Position numbers and translations under genes: made by a program. Below are positions 21,508 to 57,618 of a DNA stretch of 64,000 nucleotides, piece after piece. The notes under the pieces are model-generated. The model was given only the letters and a program-made list of their open reading frames with translations. It ran no database searches and was not told where the DNA came from. The DNA lies in contig NZ_SPQK01000001.1 of assembly GCF_004570875.1 (NCBI RefSeq), positions 372,001 to 436,000 on the forward strand, given 5' to 3'. Every line of letters starts with the position of its first letter. The first letter of the stretch is position 1. This DNA comes from Blastococcus sp. CT_GayMR16 (GTDB lineage: Bacteria; Actinomycetota; Actinomycetes; Mycobacteriales; Geodermatophilaceae).

Positions 21508-21580
21508 GCGCCATTAGCTCAATTGGCAGAGCAGCTGACTCTTAATCAGCGGGTTCGGGGTTCGAGTCCCTGATGGCGCA
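21508..21580 (+). tRNA. tRNA-Lys (CTT anticodon), attachment gene of the prophage
   Basis: 73 nt; acceptor GCGCCAT/ATGGCGC, anticodon loop CTCTTAA (anticodon CTT), T-arm GGGTTCGAGTCCC, discriminator A, no encoded CCA. From 21,545 the sequence belongs to the 41-bp phage core, so the 3' half is supplied by the prophage and the tRNA stays intact. On the opposite strand its anticodon loop supplies the TAA that ends the repressor gene. Confidence 0.97.
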
Positions 21581-21886
21581 CCCACCGTCGGGCCCTGCGG
21601 GGCCGTCCGGGTCGTTGACGACGACCGAAAGCCGGCGACCGTCGATGATCGGCTGCCCGGAGAACAGGTCGTTCGGCTGGACGCCATACCGCCTGCACAC
21701 CAACTCGATTTCATCGGGCTTCCACGTGCCGCCGGAGAGCTTGCGGTAGAGGCCGGCCAAGGAGATATCGAGGGCCAAGGCAAGCCGAAGCTTCTTGTCA
21801 TCGGTGTGCTCCATGAGCTGTTGCACCGCGGAGCCGATGCGAGTGTCTACGGGTAGCGCCTCTGTGGGCTGCTGACTGGCTGTCAT
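21542..21886 (-). CDS. Immunity repressor whose 3' end contains the attachment core
   Basis: 114 aa in the prophage from ATG 21886, likely leaderless; in-frame ATGs at 21895 and 21922 are alternatives. An XRE-like helix-turn-helix occupies about residues 31-75 (KKLRLALALDISLAGLYRKL, then ELVCRRYGVQPNDLF). Residues 102-114 (ending RDSNPEPAD) are encoded by the attachment core, and the TAA stop (21544-21542) lies outside it in the host tRNA. In the circular phage the frame continues 20 codons through 57,577-57,515 and ends DLIRAA. The prophage form therefore lacks a probable C-terminal degradation tag. Divergent from the Cro-like gene. Confidence 0.88.
   Translation of the reverse strand: MTASQQPTEALPVDTRIGSAVQQLMEHTDDKKLRLALALDISLAGLYRKLSGGTWKPDEIELVCRRYGVQPNDLFSGQPIIDGRRLSVVVNDPDGPAGPDGGCAIRDSNPEPAD
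21545..21585. repeat. attL core (41 bp) within tRNA-Lys
   Basis: Identical to 57,578-57,618. It covers the 3' side of the anticodon stem through the T-arm, the acceptor strand and 5 bp beyond the tRNA. On the minus strand it encodes the last 13 repressor codons plus two bases of the one before. Confidence 0.95.
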
Positions 21887-21975
21887 GCACAGCATGATCA
21901 AGCTTGCGACAAACTTTTGCAAGAACCTCGCATGTTCGGCTTGTCAACTTCCAACTTTTGGGTAACACTTCTGAC
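21887..21975. promoter_or_regulatory. Immunity region: divergent rep/cro promoters and operator repeats
   Basis: Rightward: -35 TTGTCA (21941-21946), 16-bp spacer, -10 TAACAC (21963-21968), with the ATG at 21976 seven bases on, so the cro mRNA is probably leaderless. Leftward: TTGCAA (21923-21918) and a weak -10 GATCAT (21899-21894). The AT-rich block holds TTGCGACAAACTTTTGCAAG (21904-21923), with inverted ends, and AACTTCC-AACTTTTG (21946-21960). Similar words recur at 35,658-35,700. Confidence 0.7.
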
Positions 21976-22176
21976 ATGCCCACACCGCTACGGCGACTCG
22001 CCGACAACCTCATCGAGGGCGGTGTCGACCGCTTCGTCACCGACCGCCGGAAGGACGGGAAGTCCTGGCGAGCCATCGCGCTCGACCTCCGAGACACCTC
22101 GAACGGCCAGCTCGACATCACGCCGGAAACCGTCCGCGGCTGGTACCGAGAAGCCACCACGGGAGCTGTCGCGTGA
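21976..22176 (+). CDS. Cro-like helix-turn-helix protein
   Basis: 66 aa from ATG 21976, probably leaderless. Sequence of the small actinophage HTH family: LRRLADNLIEGGVDRFV, then GKSWRAIALDLRD and DITPETVRGWYREA as the recognition part. First rightward gene, divergent from the repressor, which is the Cro position. It could instead be an excisionase-type protein. Confidence 0.7.
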   Translation: MPTPLRRLADNLIEGGVDRFVTDRRKDGKSWRAIALDLRDTSNGQLDITPETVRGWYREATTGAVA

Positions 22177-22487
22177 TCACCCGCCAACAGGTCGCCGATC
22201 TCCACGAAGGTGACGTCGTCGAGATCGCAGACGAACGGTGGCCCGACACGTACGTGTGCGGACCCCTGCGCGTCCAGGACTACGTGTACTGCCCCGGCGC
22301 TCTCTGCTGCCGAGACATTCCAGTGCGAAGCGCGAGCGGCCAGCCGTATGGGGCGCGGACCGCGTCGCTGACGGTTCTCACGCGTGCACCTCAACCGCTG
22401 CCGCCTCCCGTTTCGCCGTCGCCGTCGCCGTCGCCGATCGTGATCCACGTACACGTCAACGGCGTCTCCGCGGAAGCCGCGGCATGA
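22173..22487 (+). CDS. Early phage protein, unknown
   Basis: 104 aa from GTG 22173, overlapping the upstream stop (GTGA). A compact N-terminal part with three Cys (TYVCGPLRV, VYCPGALCCRD) is followed by a Pro/Ser tail (LPPPVSPSPSPSP). No family recognised. Confidence 0.6.
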   Translation: MITRQQVADLHEGDVVEIADERWPDTYVCGPLRVQDYVYCPGALCCRDIPVRSASGQPYGARTASLTVLTRAPQPLPPPVSPSPSPSPIVIHVHVNGVSAEAAA

Positions 22488-55710: not shown

Positions 55711-56270
55711 TGCCGTTCGCCAGGGGCCCGGTCCTCACCTACACCGGCCGCGGCCGGTACTCCACGGTCGGCCCCACCGAGTACGTCGGCGACCCCGGCA
55801 GCGGCGGGGACGTCATCACCATCCCCGGCGGGTTCACCACCGACCTCGCGTCGGTGCCCCGCTTGTTCTGGGCGCTGATCCCACCGCAGGGTGCCTACGA
55901 GTCGGCCGCCGTCCTTCACGACTACCTGTGTGCGCAGCTGGCGGAGCAGTACGCCGGGACTTACCGCGTCGACATCGACGCGTGGACGCCCGAACGCGGC
56001 TGGCCGCAGCGCATCTCCGCCCGGGACACCGACGGCCTGTTCCGCCGCGTCATGCGCGAGGCCGGCGTGCCGTTCCTCATCCGCTGGGTGATGTGGGTCG
56101 GCGTCCGCTGGGGTGCCCTGGCCAACCCGGCCCGCCGCTCCGGCTGGTGGCGGGACGCGCCCCTCGTTGTATTCCTATCCGCGCTCGGCCTGGCCGTGAC
56201 GCTGCTGCTGCTGTGGGCCGCACACGAGGCCGTCGACGCGTTCCTGCGGTTGATCACCCGAGGCCGGTGA
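55710..56270 (+). CDS. DUF1353 protein with C-terminal membrane helix
   Basis: 186 aa from GTG 55710. DUF1353 core: TIPGGFTTDLASVPRLFWAL and YESAAVLHDYLCAQLAEQYA with conserved His-Asp-Tyr. A helix near the end (VVFLSALGLAVTLLLLWAAH). Last rightward gene of the phage; its role in lysis is unknown. Confidence 0.78.
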   Translation: MPFARGPVLTYTGRGRYSTVGPTEYVGDPGSGGDVITIPGGFTTDLASVPRLFWALIPPQGAYESAAVLHDYLCAQLAEQYAGTYRVDIDAWTPERGWPQRISARDTDGLFRRVMREAGVPFLIRWVMWVGVRWGALANPARRSGWWRDAPLVVFLSALGLAVTLLLLWAAHEAVDAFLRLITRGR

Positions 56271-56586
56271 GATCGACCAGGGTCCACGAGTCGTCCCCGT
56301 TGTCTCGGATCGTGCACACGAAGTCCGAACGCAACGAGGCCCCGAAGGCGTTGTCGGAGTCCACGTGGCCCGACACCACGTACTCGCTGCCGCTGCCGGA
56401 TACCACGTACTCGCCGGCCGGCTGGAACTCCGCAGACCCGGGCGACACCAGCCGCTCTTCGATGAACTGCTCACACATGACGCCGGCCCCGATCTCATCC
56501 CGACCGTCATCCGGTGTGCTCGAGCAGGCGGTCAGAGCGACAGTTGTGGTGAGCAAGGTCAGAATCAGGCGCATGGTCGGCATCAT
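56254..56586 (-). CDS. Prophage lipoprotein coupled to integrase, exclusion candidate
   Basis: 110 aa from ATG 56586, whose ATG overlaps the integrase stop (ATGA). Signal peptide with lipobox LTAC (TVALTACSS). The mature part has EYVVSGSGSEYVVSGH, a short internal duplication, two Cys (VMCEQF, FVCTIR) and ends WTLVDLTGLG. It overlaps the convergent DUF1353 gene by 17 bp. Being in the leftward rep-int unit it could act in the lysogen, for example in superinfection exclusion; that is inference. Confidence 0.75.
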   Translation of the reverse strand: MMPTMRLILTLLTTTVALTACSSTPDDGRDEIGAGVMCEQFIEERLVSPGSAEFQPAGEYVVSGSGSEYVVSGHVDSDNAFGASLRSDFVCTIRDNGDDSWTLVDLTGLG

Positions 56587-57518
56587 GCTGCCCCGTTCAC
56601 TGCGGTGCGAAGCTCGTCGTGACCCAAGCGCGTGTAGATGCGCGTGGTCTCGATGTTGCGGTGCCCGAGCAGCTCGGCGATCACGTAAATGTCCGCGCCG
56701 CCCGCTCGCACCCGGGTGGCGAACCGGTGCCGCAGGGTGTGCAGCGCCCACCCGGCAGGGAGTAGCCGGGACGCGAGTACGCCCACATGCGCCGGCGTCA
56801 GATGGCCGCCGGCGGGGCTGGGGAACAGCCAGCTAGGCGGCTGATCAAGCAGCTCGGCTGCGAGGTGGCCGGTCAGCGGCACGTCTCGGTAGGCGTCACC
56901 CTTGCCGTGCACGCGCAGGTGCCAGCCGTCGTCGGCGCGGTGTACGTCTTCCCGCCGCGCCTGGGCAATCTCTGCCCGGCGCAGCCCGCCGTAGGCCGCC
57001 AGCAGCAGCATCAGCCGAACCCGATCGTCGGCTAGGGCGACCGCGGTGCGCAGAACTTCCTCGGCGATCGGTCGGGGCAGCCCGCGGGTGGCTTTCACGC
57101 GGGGCAGGGCCGCGGCTGGCGAGCGTTCGAGATGCCCGACGGCGACGGCCCACGCATAGAACGCGCGCAACGCGCCACGGTTGGCCCGGCGAGTATTCGG
57201 CACCCACTGTTCGTGGCCGGCCAGCCACAGCACCAGGTGGTCGAGGGTGATGTGCCAAGGCGACAGGTCGGGATGGTCGCAGGCGAAGCGGCGCAGCTGG
57301 TAGAGGCGCTGCACGATTGTGGAGGCGGGAGCGCCGGAGGCTTTCAGCCAGCCTTCCCATCCATCTAGAGCGGATTGCCAGCGTTCCGGTACTCGTTTGA
57401 CCCCCATGCGTGAAGCACGGGCCACAGTGAGCCAGGACACAACCGGGGTGACCGGTGTGGGTGACCCTGAGTCACTCGGGCGCGGTACCTGTACTGCTCC
57501 CCCATTACCGCTGGTCAC
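56583..57518 (-). CDS. int: Tyrosine integrase
   Basis: 311 aa from GTG 57518; a start at ATG 57407 (MGVKRVPERW) is possible. SAM-like N-terminal domain, then catalytic residues R180 (GGLRRAE), K206 (HGKGDAY), H260 and R263 (HTLRHRF), H286 (LLGHRNIE) and the nucleophile Y295 (TTRIYT). It ends TAVNGAA, a possible C-terminal degradation signal. In the circular phage its GTG overlaps the stop of the extended repressor (GTGA). In the prophage that link is lost because attR, not rep, lies upstream. Confidence 0.92.
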   Translation of the reverse strand: MTSGNGGAVQVPRPSDSGSPTPVTPVVSWLTVARASRMGVKRVPERWQSALDGWEGWLKASGAPASTIVQRLYQLRRFACDHPDLSPWHITLDHLVLWLAGHEQWVPNTRRANRGALRAFYAWAVAVGHLERSPAAALPRVKATRGLPRPIAEEVLRTAVALADDRVRLMLLLAAYGGLRRAEIAQARREDVHRADDGWHLRVHGKGDAYRDVPLTGHLAAELLDQPPSWLFPSPAGGHLTPAHVGVLASRLLPAGWALHTLRHRFATRVRAGGADIYVIAELLGHRNIETTRIYTRLGHDELRTAVNGAA

Positions 57519-57577
57519 GCCGCCCGGATGAGGTCGACGGGACGGCGGCGCCGCTGTACGCGGCGGGCGAAATCTAT
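57515..57577 (-). other. attP-encoded 20-codon repressor tail, detached in the prophage
   Basis: On the minus strand, starting directly at the core edge, the repressor frame continues as IDFARRVQ, then a four-Arg run, then PVDLIRAA and TGA (57517-57515). It is joined to the repressor only when the phage is circular. The basic stretch plus terminal Ala-Ala resembles an ssrA-type tag. Confidence 0.82.
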
Positions 57578-57618
57578 ATCAGCGGGTTCGGGGTTCGAGT
57601 CCCTGATGGCGCACCCAC
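57578..57618. repeat. attR core (41 bp)
   Basis: Identical to 21,545-21,585; the leftover 3' half of the original tRNA-Lys. Mismatches at both outer bases define the edges. Confidence 0.95.

Follow-up and report, generated by a model that had tools for sequence, protein, structure and literature searches.

We report that the 64,000-nucleotide stretch of Blastococcus sp. CT_GayMR16 analysed here (the window; contig NZ_SPQK01000001.1, positions 372,001 to 436,000) carries a 36-kb prophage whose attachment core lies inside the open reading frame (ORF) of its repressor gene, rep. A stop codon in host DNA cuts the prophage repressor to 114 residues, and the remaining tail of the frame stands at the far end of the prophage together with the start of the integrase gene, int. 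This arrangement very probably constitutes an integration-dependent immunity switch, and the tail carried by the virus form of the repressor probably marks that form for destruction. A first-pass annotation of this DNA had proposed such a switch; its facts hold, and its mechanism is very likely correct.

The prophage is bounded on both sides by copies of a 41-bp core that are identical without interruption and that lie within a wider 46-bp repeat (21540-21585 and 57573-57618, 96% identical; Table 1). The left copy completes a tRNA-Lys(CTT) gene, and attB overlaps this gene, which remains intact as called by ARAGORN. Reading the minus-strand rep frame through 21545-21585 bore out the first-pass claims that the core encodes the last 13 repressor codons and that at attL the frame ends at a host TAA (21544-21542) in the anticodon loop of the tRNA. 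At attR the same frame does continue, as had been stated, for 20 codons (57577-57515), reading IDFARRVQRRRRPVDLIRAA followed by a stop and so ending DLIRAA. The repressor of the inferred virus form thus has the 134 residues that had been given for it, against 114 amino acids in the prophage. The latter length is counted from ATG 21886; the alternative start TTG 21922 would give 126 codons. The TGA that closes the tail (57517-57515) overlaps the GTG start of int as GTGA. The location of the attP core inside the repressor ORF was derived from the order of attL and attR, and the same order is seen in natural virus forms of relatives. One IMG/VR contig (L261) encodes a repressor 100% identical to that of the window and ends exactly at the repressor TAA; it evidently represents the same prophage.

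Table 1. Coordinates of the tRNA-Lys(CTT) prophage and its attachment sites in the window.
Feature	Position	Strand	Basis
Host tRNA-Lys(CTT), intact at attL; contains the prophage repressor's stop codon	21508..21582	+	ARAGORN and sequence
attL common core, 41 bp	21545..21585	.	Uninterrupted identity to attR copy
rep, prophage form, 114 aa, Cro/CI-type HTH	21542..21886	-	ORF and profile matches; TAA 21544-21542 is host sequence
rep-cro intergenic region, presumed operator and divergent promoters	21887..21975	.	Position only
Small divergent gene in the cro/excise position	21976..22176	+	48% identical over 58 residues to the second prophage's counterpart
Prophage body: RecT, methylases, terminase, portal, capsid, tape measure, tail, peptidase	23489..56270	+	
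int, tyrosine recombinase, 311 aa, C-terminus -VNGAA	56583..57518	-	Pfam Phage_integrase 1.5e-17; PHROG integrase
rep 3' remnant, 20-codon tail IDFARRVQRRRRPVDLIRAA and stop	57515..57577	-	Same frame at attR; continuous with rep only at the inferred attP of the circular phage
attR common core, 41 bp	57578..57618	.	Uninterrupted identity to attL copy

The truncated gene encodes a protein of the Cro/CI-type helix-turn-helix (HTH) class. In the PDB, a profile of rep and four relatives matched 4ich, a transcriptional regulator (4.6e-7), and the C2 repressor of P22 (8.6e-5); rep on its own matched HTH_26 in Pfam at E 0.0048, which falls under the curated cut-off. The whole protein also matches phrog_2328 at 4e-8; since that family holds the repressor of phage Angel as well (gp33, 3e-41), part of the match is to tRNA sequence. 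The C-terminus of the virus form, -LIRAA, is ssrA-like as judged by sequence only, and the tag encoded by the host tmRNA, read at the gene located with Rfam, is ADSNQRDFALAA. We propose that in the circular phage rep and int would be transcribed together, and that the 134-residue repressor and the integrase, both of which end in -AA, would be fed to ClpXP like tmRNA-tagged host proteins. Their degradation would keep both repression and integration low, with lytic growth as the default. When integrase escaped degradation and integration followed, the tag would be lost and the repressor would become stable; it would then turn off the divergent early promoter, and int would lose its promoter. The first-pass annotation had suggested that the logic of mycobacteriophage BPs operates here. 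The anatomy of the locus and its relatives support that suggestion, in which proteolysis and repressor activity are the predicted elements.

Natural virus forms repeat the arrangement. Among the matches listed in annotated phages, Gordonia phages have the closest integrases, namely McGonagall and Jeanie (50% over 264 aa), GRU3 and GMA5; that of Angel, a near twin of BPs, is further off, at 38.6% identity to the window's. From 401 matching records we fetched 12, picked from the 50 listed. Six annotated Reps contain CAIRDSNPEPAD in the window's frame, and each has a tail ending in -AA: McGonagall (RLLSLVAA), GRU3 (ELLSLVTAA), GMA5 (LVHPLVAWGAAA), Emperor (PLRPVAA), SallySpecial (RAMSAA) and EricDab (PPWAA). 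The Rep of Rahul uses a different tRNA frame and likewise ends in AA. A conserved frame across attP ending in Ala-Ala, which the first-pass annotation had pointed to as a check, is therefore present in six annotated Reps and also in a viral contig in virus form (L268), which reads CAIRDSNPEPAD...LGGAA and then a stop. A second viral contig (L262), in prophage form, reads CAIRDSNPEPAD and a stop at an intact tRNA-Lys and has a related integrase (L051) at its other end. The query that found L268, L262 and a third contig, L263, included the tRNA-coded part of rep, so part of each match is tRNA sequence and the search gives no information on how frequent other frames are.

The core is conserved along with the frame. 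Four Gordonia phages and G016, a genome of the same host family, share 37 of its 41 bp exactly, and this 37-bp core is invariant in the seven aligned sequences (both window copies, the four phages and G016). The repressor domains are a different matter. In BLASTP against the 12 phage Reps, the window's repressor matched beyond its tRNA-coded end only that of GMA5 (34% over 85 residues, that end included), and in tblastn against annotated phages it had no match at E 0.01; relatives of rep are rare, occurring in 2 of 396 genomes of the phylum with its own genome counted. G016 carries an integrase 75% identical to the window's, and the attR tail there ends DDLAAVA. A different contig of G016 encodes a dissimilar HTH Rep that ends in CAIRDSNPEPAD and a stop at tRNA-Lys, with core, frame and stop as in the window. 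The two loci (L010 and L202) likely belong to one prophage. Because of the G016 arrangement and of repressor similarity restricted to GMA5, the core, tail and int unit seems to have been combined with different repressor domains, and looks like a modular cassette.

We also took a census of tails. An integrase-alignment scan gave the best 80 of 451 related viral stretches, which with the 12 phage loci made 92, and in 52 of these the stretch before the integrase match was 600 nt or longer. All loci in which an ORF crossed a tRNA T-loop motif after 60 or more codons were counted (n = 37; nothing was dropped), although by eye some are not repressors, e.g., L102 and L108. The tail ended in AA at 23 of the 37 loci and in 15 of 28 distinct tails (distinct by their last ten residues). 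Of 65 other annotated proteins at the 12 phage loci, 1 did so (Fisher p ~6e-9, a value that is only a guide, as the distinct tails are not fully independent).

This enrichment bears on an alternative in which the frame across attP serves mainly to couple translation of int to that of rep through the overlapping stop and start, the -AA being incidental. The overlap is real: GTGA here, ATGA in a second prophage found elsewhere in the genome, and likewise 4 nt in Angel, Taheera and Hibiscus, with no obvious Shine-Dalgarno sequence before the int GTG by eye. Yet int starts 15-353 nt past the end of rep in 9 of the 12 annotated phages, and 7 of these 9 Reps still end in -AA, which, with the overall excess of AA in the census, makes coupling as the main role unlikely. 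A second alternative is that the long form is not degraded but acts as a functionally different repressor or activator, e.g., by setting the rep promoter during infection. According to PMC4557955, the two BPs forms do not differ in DNA binding and Prep activity rose modestly with a stabilised long form, but the long form is inactive because it is degraded. With C-terminal AA enriched in the census as well, we regard a distinct function of this kind as quite improbable here.

Several observations weigh against the integration-dependent switch. AA is missing from the end of 13 of the 28 distinct tails (groups lacking -AA are known from a study of M. abscessus prophages, PMC8092301), and L263, a virus form, has a tail ending CDQASS. 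In G016, the integrase ATG lies ~690 nt beyond the tail stop. A simple scan of 21887-21975 found no sigma-70-like promoter. Without its tRNA-coded part, rep loses its match to phrog_2328 and is left with phrog_4583 (1e-5) as its only one, and for 11 of the 12 phage Reps compared no BLASTP similarity was found outside the tRNA-coded end. Finally, an open antisense frame through tRNA-Lys is common by chance and is weak evidence alone: in 15 of 15 genus mates the frame ending in CAIRDSNPEPAD and a stop is open upstream for 8 to 193 codons, compared with 124 in the window when counted in that way. A gene that ends beside a tRNA could thus read into it antisense by accident, its tail being whatever phage DNA follows. 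However, core, frame and tail type recur in independent virus-form genomes, and the second prophage shows like geometry at another tRNA, so that pure chance is highly improbable and already disfavoured. The case for the switch rises above chance because natural virus forms repeat the core, the frame and the tail type, and because the ORF encodes a Cro/CI-type HTH protein.

The switch is not new in kind, but is a further, well-supported example of a known one. Integration-dependent immunity is known from mycobacteriophages, from Gordonia phages including users of tRNA-Lys (PMC5559632) and from prophages of Bifidobacterium and M. abscessus (PMC6109161, PMC8092301). The first-pass annotation was correct in naming tRNA-Lys(CTT) as the site, whereas the use of such a switch outside Mycobacterium is preceded by Gordonia and Bifidobacterium. 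The Gordonia phages of cluster CW (McGonagall, Jeanie, GRU3 and GMA5) share with the window an integrase at ~45-50% identity, an identical 37-bp tRNA-Lys core, the same frame through it, an -AA tail and published integration-dependent immunity (PMC5559632). They differ in an HTH domain that is weakly similar (GMA5) or undetected by BLASTP, in genomes of ~17-18 kb compared with a 36-kb prophage, and in a gap between rep and int where the window has an overlap. BPs and Angel (cluster G), Brujita and cluster P share the rep-attP-int order, a divergent gene in the cro/excise position and truncation by a host stop. Angel, alike in its 4-nt overlap, differs in a viral Rep that ends in -KAS, not -AA; cluster P differs in its tRNA-Thr site (PMC9635641), whose core sequence Brujita shares, and BPs in its tRNA-Arg site (PMC9262239).

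For the Bifidobacterium prophages Bb423phi2 and 689b-1, reading attL and attR predicts a longer virus form, as it does here, and a longer virus form is likewise predicted for the M. abscessus prophages MabB, C, H, K, N and O (PMC6109161, PMC8092301). These have other hosts and attachment sites, and several M. abscessus groups are without -AA tags. Arthrobacter phage Galaxy is described as having a similar gene order with attP outside the repressor, and a Streptomyces phage for which integration-dependent immunity was claimed on synteny has a serine integrase. A literature search for "integration-dependent" with four actinobacterial genus names returned no use of the term among the matches listed. 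The window supplies one more clear example of a repressor edited by integration itself. The genome as a whole shows two different attachment sites, a third likely system occurs in a host-family relative (G016), and dissimilar repressor domains are seen combined with one and the same core, frame and type of tail.

The second prophage of the genome (G000:C22:56432-105309, ~48.8 kb; L012, L025, L028) occupies tRNA-Arg(ACG), and its core is the 5' half of that tRNA. Its left end consists of the first 41 nt of the gene (56432-56472), and the complete tRNA-Arg(ACG) stands at its right end, behind the repressor gene. The repressor, 30% identical to the window's, enters the tRNA in sense orientation and has its stop codon, TAG, past the core; in the inferred virus form, the added tail ends YAERLIA, directly before the TGA that overlaps the integrase ATG. 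The integrase matches those of Purky, BigNuz, Shipwreck and Brujita at 42-44% (25 matches listed of 242), phages whose repressors run antisense across the tRNA 3' half. A review describes the core in integration-dependent systems as containing the tRNA 3' end (PMC9262239), and the arrangement of the second prophage therefore differs from that description. Before the integrase, a sense tRNA A-box was found in this prophage only, of 97 loci (in 40 of these that stretch is shorter than 600 nt), and none was found in 13 further loci.

tRNA-Ser(GCT) and tRNA-Arg(ACG) adjoin at 12 of 14 genus-mate loci, one of the other two meeting a contig end, and are parted by ~48.8 kb in this genome. As the prophage is inserted between them, the tRNA-Arg is cut off from its old upstream DNA in the lysogen. 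No second full match to tRNA-Arg(ACG) was found in the genome and no other tRNA within the prophage, where a simple scan gave a promoter-like site only before rep. Tentatively, core, tail and int may form a portable switch that has been turned round in the second prophage, with the repressor transcript perhaps the sole source of an essential tRNA-Arg, although we consider this doubtful. If true, the cell would depend on transcription of the prophage repressor, and RNase P, by cutting at the 5' end of the tRNA, would deprive the repressor mRNA of its stop codon. This variant is the more surprising part of our findings, and it offers a testable link from repressor expression to an essential tRNA. 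tRNA-dependent lysogeny (Fionnbharth and others; PMC10865867) offers a likeness to the second prophage only, in which the viability of the lysogen may be tied to a phage-side tRNA. In that published system the phage has a separate tRNA gene, whereas in the second prophage the host tRNA gene stays intact, with its 5' half and the DNA upstream of it supplied by the phage.

Other integrases and repressor matches were set aside. An integrase-profile scan of genome contigs gave mostly distant integrases among the matches listed. Before those of L203-L206 (45-46% identical) lie other genes, with no repressor frame in the few hundred upstream bases read. The third integrase of the genome (L211/L222, G000:C20:38712-39563), which shares 47% identity with the second prophage's integrase, is likewise preceded by other genes and has no repressor frame in the ~450 nt read upstream. 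Repressor matches in the host-family genomes G001 and G003 are sited at tRNA-Lys and contain an internal TGA, the match in G004 lies in a short frame at a tRNA-Lys fragment, and L269-L272 are tRNA-Arg sequence and nothing more. In L263, ARAGORN called a complete tRNA-Thr-like gene across the attP region, antisense to rep (2770-2845), which may be a chance composite.

Some minor features were also noted. In four Gordonia phages an inverted repeat seen by eye, GCCCCGTCACC-GGAT-GGTGACGGGGC in McGonagall, lies inside rep directly before the core (about 1598-1623 in L029 and the matching region of L030, L036 and L037). Words like AACTTTTG and AAGTTTTTGGG occur in both rep-cro regions (window 21887-21975 and L012:1380-1470) and, as judged by eye, might be operator half-sites; a word search turned up no further copies of such operator words elsewhere in the prophage. 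No family match was found for the product of the small divergent gene. Among the Pfam matches of int an arm-binding domain is absent, and no search for arm-type sites was made. Extra copies of the tRNA-Lys 3' end were present in G024, G027, G032, G034 and G038, 7 to 135 kb from the gene in the same-contig cases and two in a row in G027, which suggests other, possibly tandem, elements at the tRNA-Lys site. The prophage in the window, with the gene content given in Table 1, looks complete.

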